Source: Rhizobium sp. (GTDB taxonomy: Bacteria; Pseudomonadota; Alphaproteobacteria; Rhizobiales; Rhizobiaceae). From it: 8,552 nucleotides of DNA. How positions within the stretch are numbered: position 1 is the first letter of the stretch; each line of letters opens with the position of its first letter. The notes under the pieces were generated by a model that made no database searches, had not been told where the DNA came from, and worked only from the letters and a program-made list of their open reading frames with translations. Made by a program: the position numbers and the translations under genes. The stretch is from positions 7,561-16,112 of the forward strand of contig DPXQ01000068.1 of NCBI GenBank assembly GCA_003527225.1, given 5' to 3'. Below, piece by piece: positions 560 to 8,510 of the stretch.

Positions 560-573
560 TTGATTGGTCTCAA
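560..573 (+). promoter_or_regulatory. FNR/FixK-type box upstream of the universal stress gene
   Basis: TTGAT-TGGT-CTCAA matches the FNR/Anr/FixK consensus TTGAT-N4-ATCAA at 9 of 10 specified positions, with the correct 4-base centre. A good -10 candidate, TAAAAT, lies at 604-609. With that -10 the box centre would be near -49 rather than the classical -41.5, so either the start site or the mode of activation differs. The ribosome binding site and ATG of the stress gene follow at 619-631. Universal stress proteins are common members of FNR and FixK regulons, which supports the call. Confidence 0.55.
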
Positions 574-628: not shown

Positions 629-1465
629 ATGCGCTGGAAAACGATTCTTTGCCCGATCAGCTCCGAGACGGCCGACCGATTCGTGCGGCAGACCGCAGAG
701 TTGGCATATGAAGCGGATGCACATCTCAGCCTGCTTGTGACCGTTCTGGCCGCGCCGCCCGCTATAGGCAAATACGCTGCCCTGATCTCCGATGCCTGGC
801 TTGAAGAACGTGAACGCGATAATGCACTTCTCCTGGAGAAGGTCGCGGCGGTGAACTCGGCCTTGGCGAACACGAGCGCATCGGTGGACGTCGATCGCCT
901 GTATTGCGACACGTCCGCAGCCGCTTCGGAGATCGGCATGCGGGCTCTCTACGCCGACCTCGTGCTCGTTGCCGATGAAGGAAGGGTGAGCAAGGCTCTT
1001 CGGCGGGCGGCGGTCGACGGTGCACTTTTCCACGCAGGCCGACCCGCCCTTCTCGCGGTTGCTGACCAAGAACTGTCGCTGACACCTGGCAAGGTCGCGC
1101 TCGCCTGGGACGCTAGCCCCGATGCCGCCGCGGCTGCGCGGGAGGCGATCACATTGATGAAGAGCGCAAGAGATGTCCATGTGCTCATGGTCGATCCGGC
1201 GGATGGCGGCCGGGATCAGGACGAAGCGCCCGGAGCCGACATTGCCACTTATCTTGCCCGGTACGGGATCCAGGTCACGATTGACCAGTTGGAGGGCGGC
1301 GGGCGACCGGTCGCCGACGTGCTTCGCCAACGCGCGGCCGAACTCTCCGCCGATCTGCTCGTCATGGGCGCTTATGGTCATCCCCGTGTGATGGAAAGGG
1401 TATTCGGTGGTGTTACGCAGTCGATGATCGAGGTGGCACGGATCCCCGTTCTGCTCGCTCGCTGA
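629..1465 (+). CDS. Universal stress protein, tandem UspA domains
   Basis: A 278-residue cytoplasmic protein with two Usp-fold halves. The first runs from residue 1 to about 148 and opens with the typical strand WKTILCPIS. The second starts near residue 153 (KVALAWDAS) and ends with the nucleotide-binding loop G247-AY-G250, nine residues, then G260-GVT, close to the family's G-2x-G-9x-G-(S/T) motif. The first half lacks a clear copy of this loop and is probably degenerate. Usp proteins bind ATP or act as stress-time regulators; the partner is unknown. I chose ATG 629 because AAGGGGAC sits just upstream and the protein then begins where Usp proteins normally begin. An in-frame ATG at 488 would run through the FNR/FixK-like box and has no ribosome binding site. 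The gene appears monocistronic and is likely induced at low oxygen (inference from the box at 560-573). Confidence 0.87.
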   Translation: MRWKTILCPISSETADRFVRQTAELAYEADAHLSLLVTVLAAPPAIGKYAALISDAWLEERERDNALLLEKVAAVNSALANTSASVDVDRLYCDTSAAASEIGMRALYADLVLVADEGRVSKALRRAAVDGALFHAGRPALLAVADQELSLTPGKVALAWDASPDAAAAAREAITLMKSARDVHVLMVDPADGGRDQDEAPGADIATYLARYGIQVTIDQLEGGGRPVADVLRQRAAELSADLLVMGAYGHPRVMERVFGGVTQSMIEVARIPVLLAR

Positions 1466-2243: not shown

Positions 2244-3224
2244 ATGCCGACGAAATCCCAGCTTCTATGGATGTACGAGGTCATGGAAAAGGCCCGGTAC
2301 TATGAAGACACTATGGCTGCCGCCTACATGGAAGGAAAATCCCCGAAATTCGATATAGGCGCAGGTCCATTGCCGGGTGAAATGCATCTCGCGGCTGGCC
2401 AGGAGCCGTGCGCAGCTGCGGTCTGTGTCCATTTGCGTGCCGACGATACAGTGACGGCAACCCATCGGCCCCATCATGCTGCCATTGCCAAGGGAGTCGA
2501 TCTCAAGAAGATGACGGCTGAGATCTTCGGTAAGGCATCCGGGCTCGGCGGCGGCCGCGGCGGCCACATGCATCTTCTCGATTCCGCTGTCAACTTTGTC
2601 TGCAGCGGCATCATCGCCGAGGGAGCGGGGCCAGCAGTTGGCGCAGCGCTGGCTGCCAAGCTGAAGGGAAGCGATGCCATCGCGGTATCCTATGTCGGAG
2701 ACGGAGCCGCCAACCAAGGGGGGTTTCATGAATCGCTCAATCTTGCTGCCCTATGGAAACTACCGGTCGTCTTCGTGATCGAGGACAATGGATGGGGAAT
2801 TTCCGTTCCGAAATCCGCCTCTACTGCCGTTGCGGACAACAGCGGGAGGGCTGCGGCGTACGGCATTCCCGGCTTCTACGTCGTCGACAACGACACGCTG
2901 ATGCTGTTCGACGTGGCGGAGCAGGCCGTCAATCGCGCCAGGAGGGGGGATGGCCCGACGCTGATCGAAGTGGAGACCTACCGCTATTACGGTCATTTCC
3001 AGGGCGACCCGGAGCTCTATCGCCCGAAGGGCGAGGTAGCTGCACTGAAAGCTAAGGATCCGATTGCACGACTTCGCCGGCAGATCATCGGACAGGGTGT
3101 GACCGAGGAGGAAGCCAACGAGGCCGCGAGCAAGGCAAAAAGGGAAGTCGATGAGGCCTTCACCTTTGCCCGAGCCGCAGCCTATCCGGCCCCGAGCGAC
3201 GCCCTGACCCAGGTCTTTGCCTGA
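2244..3224 (+). CDS. Thiamine-diphosphate dehydrogenase E1 component, alpha subunit (acetoin/2-oxoacid type)
   Basis: A 326-residue protein of normal family length. The E1-alpha of 2-oxoacid and acetoin dehydrogenases binds thiamine diphosphate and Mg, and with E1-beta forms an alpha2-beta2 enzyme that decarboxylates or cleaves its substrate and passes the acyl group to a lipoyl arm. The cofactor motif is clear: GDG at 152-154, then N157 and ending in EDNGWG at 180-185. THR-HH at 74-79, GKGSG-like GLGGGRGGHMH at 100-110 and GHFQGDPELYR at 250-260 resemble the acetoin dehydrogenase subunit AcoA more than pyruvate dehydrogenase. The start is ATG 2244, with GGGAGG just upstream; an ATG at 2208 lacks such a site. 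It is first of four tightly spaced genes. The natural substrate (acetoin, pyruvate or another 2-oxoacid) cannot be read from sequence, so I give no gene symbol. Confidence 0.9.
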   Translation: MPTKSQLLWMYEVMEKARYYEDTMAAAYMEGKSPKFDIGAGPLPGEMHLAAGQEPCAAAVCVHLRADDTVTATHRPHHAAIAKGVDLKKMTAEIFGKASGLGGGRGGHMHLLDSAVNFVCSGIIAEGAGPAVGAALAAKLKGSDAIAVSYVGDGAANQGGFHESLNLAALWKLPVVFVIEDNGWGISVPKSASTAVADNSGRAAAYGIPGFYVVDNDTLMLFDVAEQAVNRARRGDGPTLIEVETYRYYGHFQGDPELYRPKGEVAALKAKDPIARLRRQIIGQGVTEEEANEAASKAKREVDEAFTFARAAAYPAPSDALTQVFA

Positions 3225-3252
3225 CCGGCCATTCCCTTCCAAGGAGGAAACT

Positions 3253-4272
3253 ATGTCTAGTAATCGCATTATGACCGTTTCCCGGGCGATTTCCGAAGCG
3301 ATAGCACAGGAGATGCGCGCCGATCCCACAGTCTTCGTCATGGGTGAGGATATTGGCACCTATGGCGGTATTTTCGGTGCCACGACTGGCCTTCTGACCG
3401 AGTTCGGTAAGGAGCGCGTCCGCGACACGCCGATTTCGGAAACCGCCTTCATCGGCGCTGGCGTCGGTGCCGCCATGGCGGGCATGCGACCGATCGTCGA
3501 ATTGATGTTCGTCGATTTTTTCGGCGTCTGCATGGACGCGATCTATAATCTTGCTGCCAAGAATATTTATTTTTCCGGCGGTAACTGCAAAGTGCCTATG
3601 GTCATCATGACCGCGACGGGCGGCGGATATTCCGATGCTGGCCAGCATTCGCAAACCCTGCACGCGACCTTCGCCCACTTGCCTGGCCTAAAAGTGGTAG
3701 CGCCGTCCAACGCCTACGACGCCAAGGGGCTGATGATCTCGGCCATCCGCGACGACAGCCCTGTGATGTTCATGTTCCATAAGGGGCTGCAGGGGTTGGC
3801 CTGGATGGCCTCGCCCGAAGGGGCCGCTTCCGAACTGCCGGAGGAGGCATACGCCATTCCATTCGGCGAAGCCAAGGTGGTGCGGCCGGGCAAGGACGTC
3901 ACGATCGTCAGCCTCAGCATGATGGTGCACAGGTCGCTCGATGCTGCGGGGGAACTGGCGACGCAGGGCATAGAGGCGGAGGTAATCGACCTTCGCACCT
4001 TGGTGCCGCTCGACCGCAACAAGGTGATCGAATCGGTCCGCAAGACCGGCCGGCTTGTCGTTGTCGATGAGGACTACAAGAGTTTCGGCCTCACGGGCGA
4101 AATCATCGCCATCGTCGCCGAGGAGGATCCCAGGCTTTTGAAGGCGGCACCCCAGCGCCTGGCGGTTCCCGATGTGCCAATCCCCTACAGCAGGCCGATG
4201 GAACAATACGTCCTGCCATCCGCTGACAAGATCGTCGCAGCCGTGCTGAAAACGATGACGAAGGGGGACTGA
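3253..4272 (+). CDS. Thiamine-diphosphate dehydrogenase E1 component, beta subunit
   Basis: A 339-residue transketolase-like beta subunit of usual length, partner of the alpha subunit encoded 28 bases upstream. Visible landmarks are GEDIG at 31-35, DTPISETAFIGAGVGAAMAG at 58-77 with the conserved Glu at residue 63 that activates thiamine diphosphate, QHSQ at 131-134 with the active-site His, and DLRTLVPLD at 247-255 from the C-terminal domain. The protein is complete and the key residues are present, so an active E1 heterotetramer is expected. The start at ATG 3253 has an excellent AAGGAGG site; an in-frame ATG at 3217 would overlap the alpha gene and lacks one. It is closest in feel to AcoB and PdhB-type subunits. 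Which substrate it uses is not settled by the sequence. Confidence 0.9.
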   Translation: MSSNRIMTVSRAISEAIAQEMRADPTVFVMGEDIGTYGGIFGATTGLLTEFGKERVRDTPISETAFIGAGVGAAMAGMRPIVELMFVDFFGVCMDAIYNLAAKNIYFSGGNCKVPMVIMTATGGGYSDAGQHSQTLHATFAHLPGLKVVAPSNAYDAKGLMISAIRDDSPVMFMFHKGLQGLAWMASPEGAASELPEEAYAIPFGEAKVVRPGKDVTIVSLSMMVHRSLDAAGELATQGIEAEVIDLRTLVPLDRNKVIESVRKTGRLVVVDEDYKSFGLTGEIIAIVAEEDPRLLKAAPQRLAVPDVPIPYSRPMEQYVLPSADKIVAAVLKTMTKGD

Positions 4273-4273
4273 T

Positions 4274-4516
4274 TTGGCCGACATCAGGATCGCATCCGAC
4301 CTATGGGATGCCAGCGTCATTCCCGAAGGCATCATCGCAAATTGGTTCTATGATGATGGCAGCACCGTCGCGGCGGGCGTGACGATCGCCGAGTTGATGG
4401 TGGAAAAAACTACTTTCGACATTGCGGCGCCATCGGCTGGCATCCTGCACATCGCCGTCCCCAAGGACGGCGTCGTGAAGCCGGGAACGGTGGTCGGGAC
4501 CATCGATGCGGCCTGA
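4274..4516 (+). CDS. Free-standing lipoyl-domain protein (E2-type lipoyl carrier)
   Basis: An 80-residue protein that is one lipoyl domain and nothing else. The lysine to be lipoylated is K45 in the hairpin turn MVEKTTFDI. The flanking pattern, GSTVAAGVTIAELM before it and AAPSAGILHIAVPKDGVVKPGTVVGTI after it, is that of the E2 lipoyl domains of acetoin and pyruvate dehydrogenases, not the longer GcvH protein. The peripheral-subunit-binding and acyltransferase domains that normally follow are absent, and the gene ends cleanly with TGA. The start is TTG at 4274, one base after the E1-beta stop, with AAGGGGGA about eight bases upstream; the only in-frame ATG comes after most of the fold. It should carry the acyl group or reducing equivalents formed by the E1 encoded just upstream. 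A biotin-carrier role is less likely because the target motif is EKT rather than MKM. Confidence 0.87.
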   Translation: MADIRIASDLWDASVIPEGIIANWFYDDGSTVAAGVTIAELMVEKTTFDIAAPSAGILHIAVPKDGVVKPGTVVGTIDAA

Positions 4517-5207
4517 TCTTCTCGCCCGGTGCCTGGCGACGGCCATTGCCACCGCTGCCAAGGTTGACGGCCTCACCGTCGATCCGGGCGTGGATGGCTT
4601 CACGACGGCGGCGGAGGGGCTTGAAAGGCAGGAACGGCTTTGCGACGAGATCGATGACGGCTGCCGTTTGCGCATCCTCTTTTGGCAAGCGCCGCAGACT
4701 CTCACCGTCGGACGCGCGGACACGCACCTGCCTACTTTCGATGCAGCAGCGCAACGACTGGCGGCGGAAAACTGGCCGGTTGTTGTCCGTCGCAGCGGCG
4801 GAACTGCTTGTCCGGTTTCGCTGGGTACGTTTCAGATTGCCCTTGCCCGCACTGCGGGAGCCGACTTCGCTATCGATGCTGCCTACCGCGAACTCTCGGC
4901 GATGATTGGGGATGCGTTGGCCTCGATCGGTCTCGTGGCGACGATCGGCGAAGTGGACGAAGCTTTCTGCCCCGGCCGCTTCGATATTCAAATCAACGGC
5001 CGTAAGCTTGTGGGAGTTTCACAGCATTGGTGCGAGAGAAACGGTCACAGGGTGGTAACAACTGCGGCATCGTTCGTCCTGGCGGAGGATCTATCGGAAC
5101 TCACGCGGATCGTGAATCTCTTCTATGAAAGCGCTGGGGGTGCAAAACGGTGCCGGGATGATGCCATCAACAGTCTGGACCTAGCGCTCCGGGGCTTTGG
5201 ATCATAA
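4506..5207 (+). CDS. Lipoate-protein ligase family protein (LplA-like)
   Basis: A 233-residue protein of the biotin/lipoate ligase fold. It attaches lipoate, through lipoyl-AMP, to a target lysine; the obvious target is the lipoyl protein whose gene it overlaps by 11 bases (4506-4516). Family landmarks are TVGRAD at 67-72, RRSGGTACPVSLGTFQIAL at 95-113 (LplA has RRSSGGGAVFHDLG), and GRFDIQINGRKLVGVSQ at 157-173 with the expected catalytic lysine K167. The small C-terminal accessory domain of E. coli LplA is absent, as in many catalytic-domain-only ligases. The GG-TACP sequence in place of GGGAVxHD marks a divergent subgroup. Octanoyltransferase or amidotransferase (LipM/LipL-like) activity is an alternative. 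The start ATG 4506 has GGGA nearby and gives translational coupling to the carrier gene. It is the last gene before a convergent neighbour. Confidence 0.85.
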   Translation: MRPDLLARCLATAIATAAKVDGLTVDPGVDGFTTAAEGLERQERLCDEIDDGCRLRILFWQAPQTLTVGRADTHLPTFDAAAQRLAAENWPVVVRRSGGTACPVSLGTFQIALARTAGADFAIDAAYRELSAMIGDALASIGLVATIGEVDEAFCPGRFDIQINGRKLVGVSQHWCERNGHRVVTTAASFVLAEDLSELTRIVNLFYESAGGAKRCRDDAINSLDLALRGFGS

Positions 5208-5335
5208 CCGAATGTATCTTGTCACAGAGCCGATTGAATAGGATAGGCGCAGCTGATTTGCTCGGCCGACAACGTGTCAAACGCCGACTGCCCGCAGTTA
5301 CCGTTTCAAGCCACCGGGCTCCGGGTGCCACGGGA

Positions 5336-6256
5336 TCAATGTGACCCCATGGCCTTTGCGATCCGGGTGCCGGCACGACCTTCGAGAATAGCGATGGCAT
5401 CCTCCAGTCGACCGATCCCGGTGAAGCCACCTGTCTCGGCAAAATCAGCGCCGGCAACAACCTTCGGTCCCATCGATCCCGCGGGCGCACCAAGCGCGCG
5501 GGCTTCTTCCGGTGCCAGCACTGGAATCGGCGCTGCCCCGTCACTGCCAAAGTCGCGATAGACCGTGTCGACATCAGTTAGCAATAGTAGTGCATCGGCG
5601 CCGAGCTGGCGCGCCAGAAGAGCGCTGGCAGCGTCCTTGTCGATCACCGCTTCGATGCCGATCAGGCTGCCGTCGTCGCGCCGCACCACCGGGATGCCGC
5701 CGCCGCCGGTGCAGACGACGATGACGCCGTGGTCCAGCAGAAGCCCGATGATCCTAAAGTCGGGGATCTCGACGGGCTTGGGCGAAGCCACGACCCGGCG
5801 CCATTTGTCGCCATCGGCAGCGATGGTCCATCCCGCCGCCTTGGCTCGCGCCTCCGCTTCGGCCCGATCATAGACCGGTCCGACGAACTTGCTCGGCTTT
5901 TCGAAGGCGGGGTCGCGCCCATCCACGACGACCTGGGTCAGCAGGGTTGCGACGGGCTGGGCGTGATCCAGCGCATTCTCGAGCTCCTGTTCGATCATGT
6001 AGCCAATCATGCCCTCGGTTTCCGCGCCGAGAACGTCGAGCGGATAGGCCTCGTCGGGCTTGTAGGCCGCGCCCTGCAGCGCCAGGAGACCGACCTGGGG
6101 ACCATTGCCATGGGTGACGACCAGACGATGGCCTGCGCGAACCACCGCGGCTAGTGATCGGGCTGCCACCCGCACGTTCTCTCGCTGCGTCTCGGCCGTA
6201 AGCGGTTCGCCCCGTTTCAACAGGGCATTGCCGCCCAGCGCCGCGACCACCAGCAT
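5336..6256 (-). CDS. arcC: Carbamate kinase
   Basis: A 306-residue cytoplasmic enzyme that transfers phosphate from carbamoyl phosphate to ADP, giving ATP, CO2 and ammonia: the energy-yielding last step of the arginine deiminase pathway. The amino-acid-kinase fold is clear: VVAALGGNALLKRG at the start, VVTHGNGPQVGLL, VCTGGGGIPVV, a DKD-A-A-LA segment, LLLTDVDTVYRDFG, and the closing GSMGPKV segment. The length is normal and no key segment is missing. I prefer the start at 6256 because GGGAG lies just upstream and the protein then begins at the first strand; an ATG at 6280 would overlap arcB. Only one base separates it from the arcB stop, so the two are translated together. It ends 128 bases from the convergent ligase gene. 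Confidence 0.95.
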   Translation of the reverse strand: MLVVAALGGNALLKRGEPLTAETQRENVRVAARSLAAVVRAGHRLVVTHGNGPQVGLLALQGAAYKPDEAYPLDVLGAETEGMIGYMIEQELENALDHAQPVATLLTQVVVDGRDPAFEKPSKFVGPVYDRAEAEARAKAAGWTIAADGDKWRRVVASPKPVEIPDFRIIGLLLDHGVIVVCTGGGGIPVVRRDDGSLIGIEAVIDKDAASALLARQLGADALLLLTDVDTVYRDFGSDGAAPIPVLAPEEARALGAPAGSMGPKVVAGADFAETGGFTGIGRLEDAIAILEGRAGTRIAKAMGSH

Positions 6257-6257
6257 C

Positions 6258-7259
6258 TCAGGCTCCCAGGGTGGCGACAAGCACCGCCTTGATCGTGTGC
6301 AGCCGGTTTTCGGCCTGATCGAAGACGATCGATGCCGGGCTTTCGAAAACCTCCTCGGTCACCTCCATCGCATCGAGTCCGAACTCGGCCTTGATGTCCG
6401 CACCGACGCTCGTCTCGGTATTGTGGAAGGCCGGCAGGCAATGCATGAAGCGCACGCGCGGATTGCCGGTCTTGGCCATCAGCGCCGCGTTCACCTGGTA
6501 GGGCGTCAGCAGCTTGATGCGTTCGGCCCATTTCTCCTTCGCCTCGCCCATCGAGACCCAGACGTCGGTATAGACGAAATCGACGCCTTTGACCGCGGCA
6601 TCGATAACCTCGGTGATCATGATCCGCGCGCCGGTCTCGGCGGCGACGGCCTGGGCCTGATCCTGGATCTCCTGTGCGGGCCAGCACGCCTTCGGCGCGC
6701 AAAGCCTTACATCCATGCCCATCTTGGCCCCGCCGATCAGCAGGCTGTCGCCCATATTGTTGCCGGCATCGCCGATGAAGACATAGGAAACCTGGTGCAG
6801 CGGCTTTTCGACATGTTCCTGCATCGTCAGGAAGTCGGCGAGGATCTGCGTGGGGTGGAACTCGTTGGTCAGGCCGTTATAGACTGGCACGCCGGAATAC
6901 TTGGCCAGTTCCTCGACGATCTCCTGGCCGAAACCGCGATATTCGATCGCATCGTAGATCCGCCCCAGGACCCGGGCGGTGTCCTTCACCGACTCCTTGT
7001 GGCCGATATGGCTGCCGGTCGGCCCCAGATAGGTGACCCGCGCGCCCTGGTCATAGGCCGCCACCTCGAAGCCGACGCGGGTGCGGGTCGAATCCTTTTC
7101 GAAGATCAGCGCGATATCCTTGCCCTGAAGCTTGGGAACCTCAGTTCCGGCGTATTTGGCGGTCTTGAGGTCGGCGGCGAGCTTCAGCAGGAAGGCGATC
7201 TCGCGCGGCGTGTAGTCGCGAAGCGTGAGGAAGCTGCGATTTTTCAAATTGAAAGCCAT
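6258..7259 (-). CDS. arcB: Ornithine carbamoyltransferase, catabolic
   Basis: A 333-residue carbamoyltransferase. In this operon it runs catabolically: citrulline plus phosphate gives ornithine and carbamoyl phosphate, which arcC then uses. Landmarks are the carbamoyl-phosphate loop STRTR at 57-61, HPTQ at 135-138, DVWVSMGE at 232-239, and HCLPAFHN at 273-280 with the conserved Cys. N-terminal domain, linker and C-terminal domain are all complete. The start at 7259 is preceded by AAGGGG. It lies 18 bases after the arcA stop and one base before arcC. The protein is longer and more arcB-like than a typical anabolic ArgF, and its place between arcA and arcC supports the catabolic name; the sequence alone cannot exclude some biosynthetic use. 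Confidence 0.95.
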
Positions 7260-7277: not shown

Positions 7278-8510
7278 TCAGATCGCATCGCGGATGGTCG
7301 GGCAGCTCATGCAATGTCCGCCGCCGCGGCCACGGCCAAGCTCCGCGCCTGGAACAGCCAGGACCTCGATGCCAACGGCCTTCAGCGCGGCATTGGTATC
7401 GTCGTTGCGGTCGTATCCGATCACCACGCCGGGGCGCAGCGCCAGCACGTTGTTGCCGTCGTTCCACTGCTCGCGCGCACGCTCTTCGTTAGTATTGCCG
7501 CCAGTGGGCACGACCTGAAGCTTCTTGTAGCCGAGCACCTCGGCGACGATGTCGAAGATCGGACGCGGATCGTGGCGGAAGAACAGCGGCGCCTTACCTT
7601 CGCCCGGCCGTATGTCATAGCAGACCAGTTCGTCGGCGACCTCCTTGAAGGTCGTCACGACGTCGCCGCCGCACAGGGTGAACACCGTATCCAGATGCAT
7701 GGCCGCACGCGACTTCGGAATGCGGAAGGCCAGCACGCGATCGACGACGCCCTTGGCAAACAGCGCCTCGGCGAGTTGCCCGATCCCTTGTGGCGACGAT
7801 CGTTCTCCCATGCCCACGAGCACGGTGCGGTTGCCGACCGGCATCACATCGCCGCCTTCCAACGTCGCCAGTCCATGCTCCTTGGTCGGGTCGCCCCAAT
7901 GGATCTCGACCTTGCCGGCGAATTTCGGATGGAACTTGTAGATCGCGGTGTTGAGCAGCGTCTCCGGCCGACGGGCTGGCCAGTACATCGGATTGACCGT
8001 CACACCGCCGTAGATCCAGCACGAGTTGTCCCGGGTAAACAGGGCGTTGGGCAAGGGCGGCAGGATCAGGCCATGATGGCCGAGATAGCTGCCGAACAGG
8101 CCAGCCGGCTTGAACGGAAGATCGTTCGCCGCAAGCCCGCCGAGCAGATACTCGGCCAGTTTGGCACCGGGCAGTTCGTCCATCCAGGCGCGCAGTTCCT
8201 CCATCATGCCCACGCCGACCTGATCCGCGTTGACGCGTTGGTCCAGCACCCAGGCCCGGCCGTCTTTCAGATCCAGCGTTTCGGCCAAAAGCACGTTGAC
8301 ATCCAGCACCTCGACGCCATCGTCGCGCATCAGGCCGGAAAAGACGTCATGGTCCTTCTGAGCCTGCTTGACCCAGAACACGTCGTCAAACAGCAGTTCC
8401 TGGCAATTGGCGGGCGTGAGGCGTCGATGGGCGAGACCGGGGCGACAGACGATCACCTGCCGCAGCTTGCCGGTTTCGGAATGCACGCCGAGTTGTGAAG
8501 TTGCGTTCAT
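7278..8510 (-). CDS. arcA: Arginine deiminase
   Basis: A 410-residue enzyme that hydrolyses arginine to citrulline and ammonia, the first step of the arginine deiminase pathway in the cytoplasm. All catalytic positions of the family are visible: FTRD with D161, LEGGD with E218, MHLD with H272 and D274, and the nucleophile C400 in the closing [22 protein letters not shown] and [18 protein letters not shown] are also characteristic. The length is typical. Arcs A, B and C are co-oriented with small gaps, so one mRNA is likely. The start at 8510 has GGGAAC upstream. The operon promoter and any FNR/Anr site are probably beyond the right edge. The reading frame on the opposite strand across this gene and arcB is a shadow and not a second gene. 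Confidence 0.96.

Follow-up and report, generated by a model that had tools for sequence, protein, structure and literature searches.

A predicted E2-less form of an acetoin-dehydrogenase-like family with a dissected E2, encoded by a four-gene cluster of Rhizobium sp.

An 8,552-nucleotide (nt) stretch of Rhizobium sp. DNA (GCA_003527225.1, contig DPXQ01000068.1, positions 7,561 to 16,112), referred to below as the window, contains four co-directional genes arranged head to tail at 2244-5207, which code for the alpha and beta subunits of a thiamine diphosphate (ThDP)-dependent dehydrogenase (E1), a free-standing lipoyl protein and a ligase-like protein. Judged from sequence comparison, this cluster appears to be the E2-less form of an acetoin-dehydrogenase-like family with a dissected acyltransferase component (E2), a family that is newly recognised here. 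The reading that we tentatively prefer, while giving it a little less than an even chance, is that the cluster would serve as an E1 plus free-carrier shuttle unit of such a system, borrowing the E2 cores and the lipoamide dehydrogenase (E3) resident in the cell. The four genes are the following:

2244..3224, + strand: E1-alpha, ThDP-dependent dehydrogenase, 326 amino acid residues (aa); PF00676 (E1_dh), 239 bits
3253..4272, + strand: E1-beta, 339 aa; PF02779/PF02780 (Transket_pyr/Transketolase_C), 140/126 bits; NF006667, 340.6 bits against a cut-off of 321
4274..4516, + strand: free-standing lipoyl carrier, 80 aa, TTG start; PF00364 (Biotin_lipoyl), 35.9 bits, cut-off 22
4506..5207, + strand: LplA/LipB/LipL-superfamily protein, 233 aa, presumed to lipoylate the carrier; PF21948 (LplA-B_cat), 60.1 bits, cut-off 27

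The spacing in the cluster is 28 nt and 1 nt, followed by an 11-nt overlap; this composition and these distances, given by an earlier sequence-only reading of the window, were borne out by the open reading frame (ORF) coordinates and the Pfam scan. Both subunits of the ThDP-dependent E1 of a 2-oxo acid or acetoin dehydrogenase complex were found, with Pfam scores above the cut-offs, conserved E1-beta segments and, in the alignment with acetoin-dehydrogenase-type E1-alpha, an intact ThDP motif (GDGAANQG...EDN). The E1-beta proteins of these clusters formed one clade, sister to the acetoin dehydrogenase E1-beta (Shimodaira-Hasegawa-like approximate likelihood ratio test values of 99 and 92, quick tree), and the E1-alpha of the window scored 280 bits with the pyruvate dehydrogenase (PDH) E1-alpha model, below its cut-off of 394. 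The lipoyl-lysine of the carrier, in the motif ELMVEKTTFDI, is K45 (codon 4406-4408), a residue that is invariant across 12 aligned carrier sequences; 11 proteins of similar length were found, apparently including that of the window itself, and the structure prediction for the carrier was unusable (predicted local distance difference test score, pLDDT, of 46). A one-protein E2, in which a lipoyl domain is joined to an acyltransferase core, is not encoded here, the lipoyl domain standing alone in its 80 aa. A profile-model scan of the six-frame ORFs of at least 55 aa gave no match to an E2 core or an E3 in the window, in agreement with the absence of both noted in the earlier reading. The E3 model recovered the E3 genes of the control loci L075, L094 and L096, and the E2-core model included one row (L011) in a wrong frame, the E2 conclusions resting on PF00198 searches as well. 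An E2 remnant between the carrier and ligase-like genes was ruled out, since their overlap leaves no room for it.

The missing part was recognised in the operons of relatives, which were reached via plasmid matches of the ligase-like protein and E1-beta. The operons of Paracoccus, Phaeobacter (two), Roseibium, Mameliella and Gemmobacter encode E1-alpha, E1-beta, a lipoyl protein of 77 aa, an E2 of 226-230 aa and the ligase-like protein, and the separate core is labelled "2-oxo acid dehydrogenase subunit E2" in these annotated operons; the order is the same in Aminobacter, except that E1-alpha is only a remnant. The set of E1-alpha, E1-beta, carrier and core was also found without an adjoining ligase-like gene in Sphingomonas, Halobaculum (two), Natrialba, Natrinema and Rhodococcus opacus, and E1-alpha, E1-beta and the carrier alone were found on three Haladaptatus plasmids. 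The bare core is present in L002-L007, L021, L053, L064, L100-L102, L104, L106, L107 and L113. Because the five bare cores scanned (L002, L053, L064, L104 and L106) matched PF00198 alone, with neither a lipoyl nor an E3-binding domain, the E2 of this family is dissected, its lipoyl carrier and its bare core being separate proteins; the active-site segment DHRxxDG or DHRxxNG was seen in all six cores inspected for it. Compared with this arrangement, the window has E1-alpha, E1-beta and the lipoyl protein and lacks the core. The earlier reading had proposed checking whether E2 or E3 ever lies near such clusters: E2 does so in many relatives, as the separate bare core, and no E3 gene, a common though not universal part of such operons, was found in the family loci scanned. 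Its remark that it knew of no characterised system with exactly this composition stood in so far as no description of a four- or five-gene cluster was found in the open-access full-text literature, to which the search was confined; the composition is not isolated, a wider core-bearing family being present.

A contig scan with a single ligase-like sequence returned one locus, and the later surveys used a 16-row alignment, which matched at least 6 of 394 genomes of the family, at least 5 of 385 of the class and at least 22 of 398 of the phylum, at least 30 of them distinct (G001 and G553 recur); these counts are lower bounds because scoring was limited to 6 candidates per genome. Longer stretches were classified for 29 of the 30 matched genomes (all except G836). 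Seven contained the four genes without a core (G001, G553, G657, G559, G734, G1066 and G1094), four had the bare core (G287, G1112, G1109 and G254, the contig of the last starting at the carrier), and one (G1062) had the fused acetoin-dehydrogenase type with a ligase-like gene, so the E2-less form outnumbers the fuller one among clusters found by this gene, and the four-gene arrangement first reported for the window recurs in seven other genomes. The remaining 17 stretches had the ligase-like gene without E1 or carrier (e.g. L054 and L058), as did L009; such genomes were considered as a clue to another target, which was rejected, the best lipoyl match of G053 being an ordinary E2 with two lipoyl domains. 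Of the named relatives, Ciceribacter naphthalenivorans (locus L001, genome G001) is closest: its E1-beta is 95% identical to that of the window, and its cluster has the same arcC neighbour. In its genus, the ligase-like match was obtained in 1 of 63 genomes, namely G001 itself. The system is accessory and sporadic in its distribution.

The PF00198 search of the seven four-gene genomes gave 17 matches, none of them in an open frame shorter than 393 aa (a stop codon interrupts one frame, that in G559); a lipoyl domain was detected by the profile model in 16 of these cores, and the 17th (L013) has a lipoyl-like N-terminus by eye. Thus, no bare core was found elsewhere in any of the seven genomes by this search, their completeness not being reported. 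At the same time, the core was recovered in a frame of 226-280 aa in all four fuller-form genomes. The three Haladaptatus records searched, plasmids only, gave 0, 1 and 2 matches, all in frames of at least 455 aa. It is therefore improbable, in our view, that the window belongs to a normal five-part complex with its bare core unlinked elsewhere in the same genome: the searches covered the genomes of relatives and so leave some room for this, and the uniform result for the seven, including the closely related Ciceribacter, speaks against it. Lipoamide dehydrogenase scored above the cut-off in all ten genomes tested. The AcoC-type E2 did so in three of the seven four-gene genomes and none of the three bare-core genomes; it was rejected as the missing partner, since it is absent from four of the seven and, where present, sits in its own E1-alpha, E1-beta and AcoC gene set.

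In the concatenated tree of E1-alpha and E1-beta (25 rows), at least five changes of core presence or absence were required, and placing all 10 E2-less rows in one clade was rejected (approximately unbiased test, p-AU 4.5e-5). The E1-beta tree (29 rows, two long ones, Rhodococcus and Sphingomonas, being unsure in position) also gave five changes and rejected a single clade of the eight four-gene bacterial rows (p-AU 0.0008), which fell into the supported groups window/Ciceribacter/G553, G657/G559/G734 and G1066/G1094. This suggests that the core gene was dropped more than once in the relatives; because the core-bearing rows branch deeper, the direction would be loss and not gain, and the core gene is most likely absent from the window's lineage through loss. 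In the tree of the bare cores, 16 of 17 rows grouped together, with Rhodococcus apart, and a single clade was not rejected (p 0.139), so that a single origin of the detached core is not required.

The ratio of nonsynonymous to synonymous substitution rates (dN/dS), given without a formal test, was 0.07 for E1-alpha, 0.10 for E1-beta, 0.21 for the carrier and 0.24 for the ligase-like gene in the comparison of the window with L001, and 0.08-0.32 over the four genes with L049, where dS was 1.2-2.1, near saturation. With values of 0.07-0.32, none of the four resembles a spurious ORF or a gene in decay, and the genes are apparently functional, as judged by selection. A degenerate remnant, left by deletion of the core and with the other four genes decaying, would suit the sporadic distribution (a single genome of the 63 in the Ciceribacter naphthalenivorans genus); it is nevertheless very improbable in view of these ratios for all four genes against two relatives, the four-gene order kept in separate lineages and the conservation of an FNR-like site upstream. 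This site and the neighbouring genes are as follows:

560..573, + strand: FNR/FixK-like site TTGATTGGTCTCAA, a TTGA-N6-TCAA match, with 55 nt between it and the ATG of the next gene, taken at 629
629..1465, + strand: universal stress protein (Usp) gene, a neighbour possibly of the same regulon; PF00582, 58.8 bits
2080..2093, + strand: FNR/FixK-like site TTGAGGCAGATCAA, a TTGA-N6-TCAA match, with 150 nt between it and the E1-alpha start
5336..6256, - strand: arcC, carbamate kinase, convergent, bounding the cluster; TIGR00746, 364 bits, above cut-off
6258..7259, - strand: ornithine carbamoyltransferase of the arginine deiminase (ADI) pathway; TIGR00658, 429 bits, above cut-off
7278..8510, - strand: arcA, arginine deiminase; PF02274, 390 bits; NF002381, 543 bits, above cut-off

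The 5' side of the cluster holds, besides the Usp gene, the end of an aminobutyraldehyde-dehydrogenase-like gene. Because the Usp gene, ending at 1465, and the convergent arcC flank the cluster inside the window, an E2 or E3 gene hidden further along the same operon, which the earlier reading had named among the findings that would overturn it, is ruled out; the four-gene operon is closed within the window and is not a truncated normal operon. A phage origin was also considered, and the search gave no match.

The TTGA-N6-TCAA pattern, which we take to be the FNR/FixK consensus, was sought after seeing the data; it has two matches in the window against 0.06 expected, and two matches arose in 1 of 200 shuffles. 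The site upstream of E1-alpha has its counterpart at the aligned position in L001, and in L049 one lies 98 nt ahead of the E1-alpha start, so that such a site occurs in all three members of the window's clade. The ADI genes adjoin the cluster in both the window and L001. On another branch of the tree, one strand of L053 (G1112, 1242-9813) carries an amino acid permease gene, arcA, argF and arcC, followed by the genes for E1-alpha, E1-beta, carrier, bare core and ligase, with no FNR-like site before E1-alpha. The unit of the window's clade may thus be induced at low oxygen by a regulator of the FNR/FixK type.

The fourth protein of the cluster resembles LipL more than LplA. Its top NCBIfam matches are octanoyl-/lipoyl-[GcvH] transferases, i.e., the LipL models NF053589 (69.6 bits, cut-off 400) and NF047857 (63.6 bits, cut-off 450), the best in that library though below their thresholds, and the curated LplA ligase model TIGR00545 gave 23 bits against a cut-off of 280. 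Its neighbours by sequence in the PDB are 2p5i (BH3822) and 2p0l, which we take to be of the LipL type, their PDB titles not saying so; the predicted structure (pLDDT 90.5) had template modelling (TM) scores, by query length, of 0.77 to 2p0l and 0.74 to 2p5i, the third-closest fold being an archaeal LplA (TM 0.68). Two residues, Cys155 and Lys167, do not vary in either alignment (16 and 20 sequences), and Cys155, in the loop before the lysine segment, aligns with a cysteine in both 2p5i and 2p0l; the conserved cysteine is catalytic in LipL and LipM. The ligase-like protein is probably, by sequence and modelled fold, a LipL-type transferase. Additionally, the four-gene cluster of L050, L051 and L052 (G657, G559 and G734) follows glycine cleavage genes on their downstream side at a distance of 1.5-1.8 kb (by Pfam for G657, and by gene order and GcvH positions for all three), which fits GcvH as the lipoyl donor; GcvH and a second LplA-B_cat protein are present in all ten genomes tested. 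Given the LipL resemblance and this proximity, the protein may be a transferase inside the normal lipoylation route. In the consulted parts of the published accounts, the LipL relay of Bacillus moves lipoyl groups from GcvH, and assigning function by sequence alone among these enzymes is called perilous (PMC7253636), while Proteobacteria are described as having LipB and never LipM, the demonstrated LipM and LipL being named for Firmicutes and Tenericutes (PMC10332631). The earlier reading had spoken of a dedicated lipoate-protein ligase: a protein of the LplA/LipB superfamily is indeed encoded in the cluster, but its identity as a ligase is not established, the LipL (amidotransferase) type being closest. 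The further step, from an own ligase to a carrier outside normal lipoylation, is unproven, as LipL works within the normal route in Bacillus.

In the preferred reading, the ligase-like protein would attach to K45 of the carrier either lipoate or octanoate, which LipA would then mature; the E1 (alpha2beta2) would decarboxylate a 2-oxo acid or cleave an acyloin, reductively acylating the free carrier; the acyl-carrier would diffuse to the resident E2 cores, which would transfer the acyl group to coenzyme A (CoA); and the resident lipoamide dehydrogenase would reoxidise the carrier, which would thus shuttle like the lipoyl protein of glycine cleavage. Docking with housekeeping E2 and E3 had been among the roles offered by the earlier reading, and genes for both do occur elsewhere in all seven four-gene genomes.

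Several points weigh against this picture. Acyl transfer in trans between the carrier and a housekeeping E2 is unproven; a lipoyl domain generally works only with the E1 and E2 of its own complex. A core elsewhere in the window's own genome is possible, the search having covered those of relatives, and the partner could differ between lineages, as an AcoC-type E2 was seen in only some of the four-gene genomes. On the side of regulation, an FNR-like site just upstream of E1-alpha was found in no family locus outside the window's clade among the 108 loci scanned, and the window site has G at position 5, where T or C is usual. The ADI genes of L001 (5306-6548), the closest relative, look broken, with an argF of 196 aa and arcA absent from the stretch; because of this, and because plasmids of Agrobacterium and Shinella carry ADI modules with no E1 cluster in the stretches displayed, the adjacency found in the window and L001 and, apart from these, in L053 is no more than suggestive, and the ADI genes were rejected as an obligate partner. 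The low-oxygen role suggested earlier thus gains from the FNR-like sites and the ADI neighbours and loses by the state of these genes in L001. Finally, the lipoyl-lysine is followed by S or T in all eight four-gene bacterial carriers and by V, I or A in all 18 whose core gene is linked, a difference that could reflect adaptation to another partner.

This last pattern, seen in E2-less carriers of three bacterial groups, together with the lack of a bare core elsewhere in the four-gene genomes, favours an alternative in which the acyl group would pass to a non-CoA acceptor via a dedicated unlinked partner, the E2-less form being a different pathway. We regard this as unlikely: the pattern was sought after seeing the data, it amounts on the E1-beta tree to three contrasts one way, none the other and one without difference (sign test p 0.25), too few for a test, and all three E2-less Haladaptatus carriers keep V. 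Moreover, no shared candidate gene was seen beside the E2-less clusters of different lineages among 20 neighbour proteins scanned, which were delimited with a crude gene picker that misses or invents genes. Distinctly unlikely is a redox unit, in which the carrier would act as the electron acceptor of E1, the thioester would be hydrolysed and lipoamide dehydrogenase or another oxidase would recycle the carrier with no need for an acyltransferase. Such a unit would account for core loss without replacement, and it could draw on the lipoamide dehydrogenase of all ten genomes tested and on a high-potential iron-sulfur protein (HiPIP) gene near two of the three Haladaptatus E2-less clusters; however, the thioester would be wasted, no thioesterase gene is among the four, and the HiPIP gene recurs in one genus only. 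A more far-reaching version of the preferred shuttle reading, which we consider somewhat unlikely as a whole, is that of a ThDP-dependent E1 charging a free carrier that never meets a dedicated acyltransferase, i.e., a diffusible, glycine-cleavage-like shuttle of acyl groups and electrons that would have evolved several times through loss of the detached core. The carrier would have been adapted next to its lipoyl-lysine to a different acceptor, and low oxygen would induce the unit in the clade of the window.

Among known systems, the acetoin dehydrogenase system (acoXABC/acoL with a sigma-54 regulator) is similar in having the sister group of this family's E1-beta, in the ligase-family gene adjoining its operon in Caballeronia (L108, after the E2 gene) and in the sigma-54 activators beside the four-gene clusters L055 and L061. 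It differs in its E2, one protein with a lipoyl domain whose acyltransferase part is of the alpha/beta-hydrolase type, whereas here the lipoyl protein is separate and the core is of the PF00198 type in the family and missing in the window. The pyruvate and branched-chain 2-oxo acid dehydrogenases share the E1-alpha and E1-beta families, the ThDP motif and the lipoyl domain; unlike them, the window has no tethered E2 or E3 gene, and its E1-alpha stays below the PDH model cut-off. With glycine cleavage, whose E3 is shared with other complexes, the cluster has in common a small free lipoyl protein shuttling between separate enzymes, and it lies near gcv genes in three relatives, but a pyridoxal phosphate-dependent P protein stands there in place of the ThDP-dependent E1, and the carrier matched Biotin_lipoyl alone in the Pfam scan, with no GCV_H (H protein) match. 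The Bacillus LipL relay has the type nearest in sequence and fold to the window's ligase-like protein, which differs in falling below the NCBIfam cut-offs and in being encoded with a free carrier. The sHdr sulfur-oxidation system also encodes a free single-domain lipoyl protein with its own ligase-like enzyme: LbpA of sulfur oxidisers is described as consisting of one lipoyl domain, with ligase genes of its own linked to it (PMC6067878). LbpA, however, resembles GcvH and works for an Hdr-like complex, and nothing of that kind was found among the nine window genes scanned with Pfam. Single-domain lipoyl proteins of archaea are named as a class in part of PMC3904984, and the portions consulted of these two papers contain no E1 system of this kind. 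Overall, the E1, the free carrier, the own ligase-like enzyme and the lack of E2 and E3 were retained from the earlier interpretation, the isolation of the composition was given up, and the inference from the ligase is unproven.

The textbook 2-oxo acid dehydrogenase complex relies on a lipoyl arm tethered to the E2 core. With arm and core encoded as separate genes in Proteobacteria, Rhodococcus and haloarchaea, and the core apparently dropped more than once, the family offers a natural test of the need for tethering, as well as of E2-core interchangeability and of the way in which acyl groups are passed on by a free carrier; the parts are small and encoded together, and can be tested directly at the bench.

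Several further features were observed around the clusters. On the Mameliella plasmid (L005, 5981-6990), the E1-beta gene is unannotated and lies in two reading-frame pieces, which is why this copy may be inactive, and a lipA gene is nearby. In the dissected-E2 operon of Rhodococcus opacus 1CP (L106, 10053-11063), a lipoyl synthase gene (lipA) takes the place where the ligase-like gene would be. The HiPIP genes of Haladaptatus lie at 10013-10321 in L103 and 7012-7407 in L114. Upstream of E1-alpha in L049 (G553, 3860-5227), a 455-aa flavin adenine dinucleotide protein is encoded, with a weak Pyr_redox_2 match and no match to the E3 model. In L003, L006, L007 and L053, the five-gene cluster is followed by a gene for a GMC oxidoreductase with a small companion gene, which hints at an alcohol or sugar-acid substrate; L064 has a similar gene, judged by resemblance.

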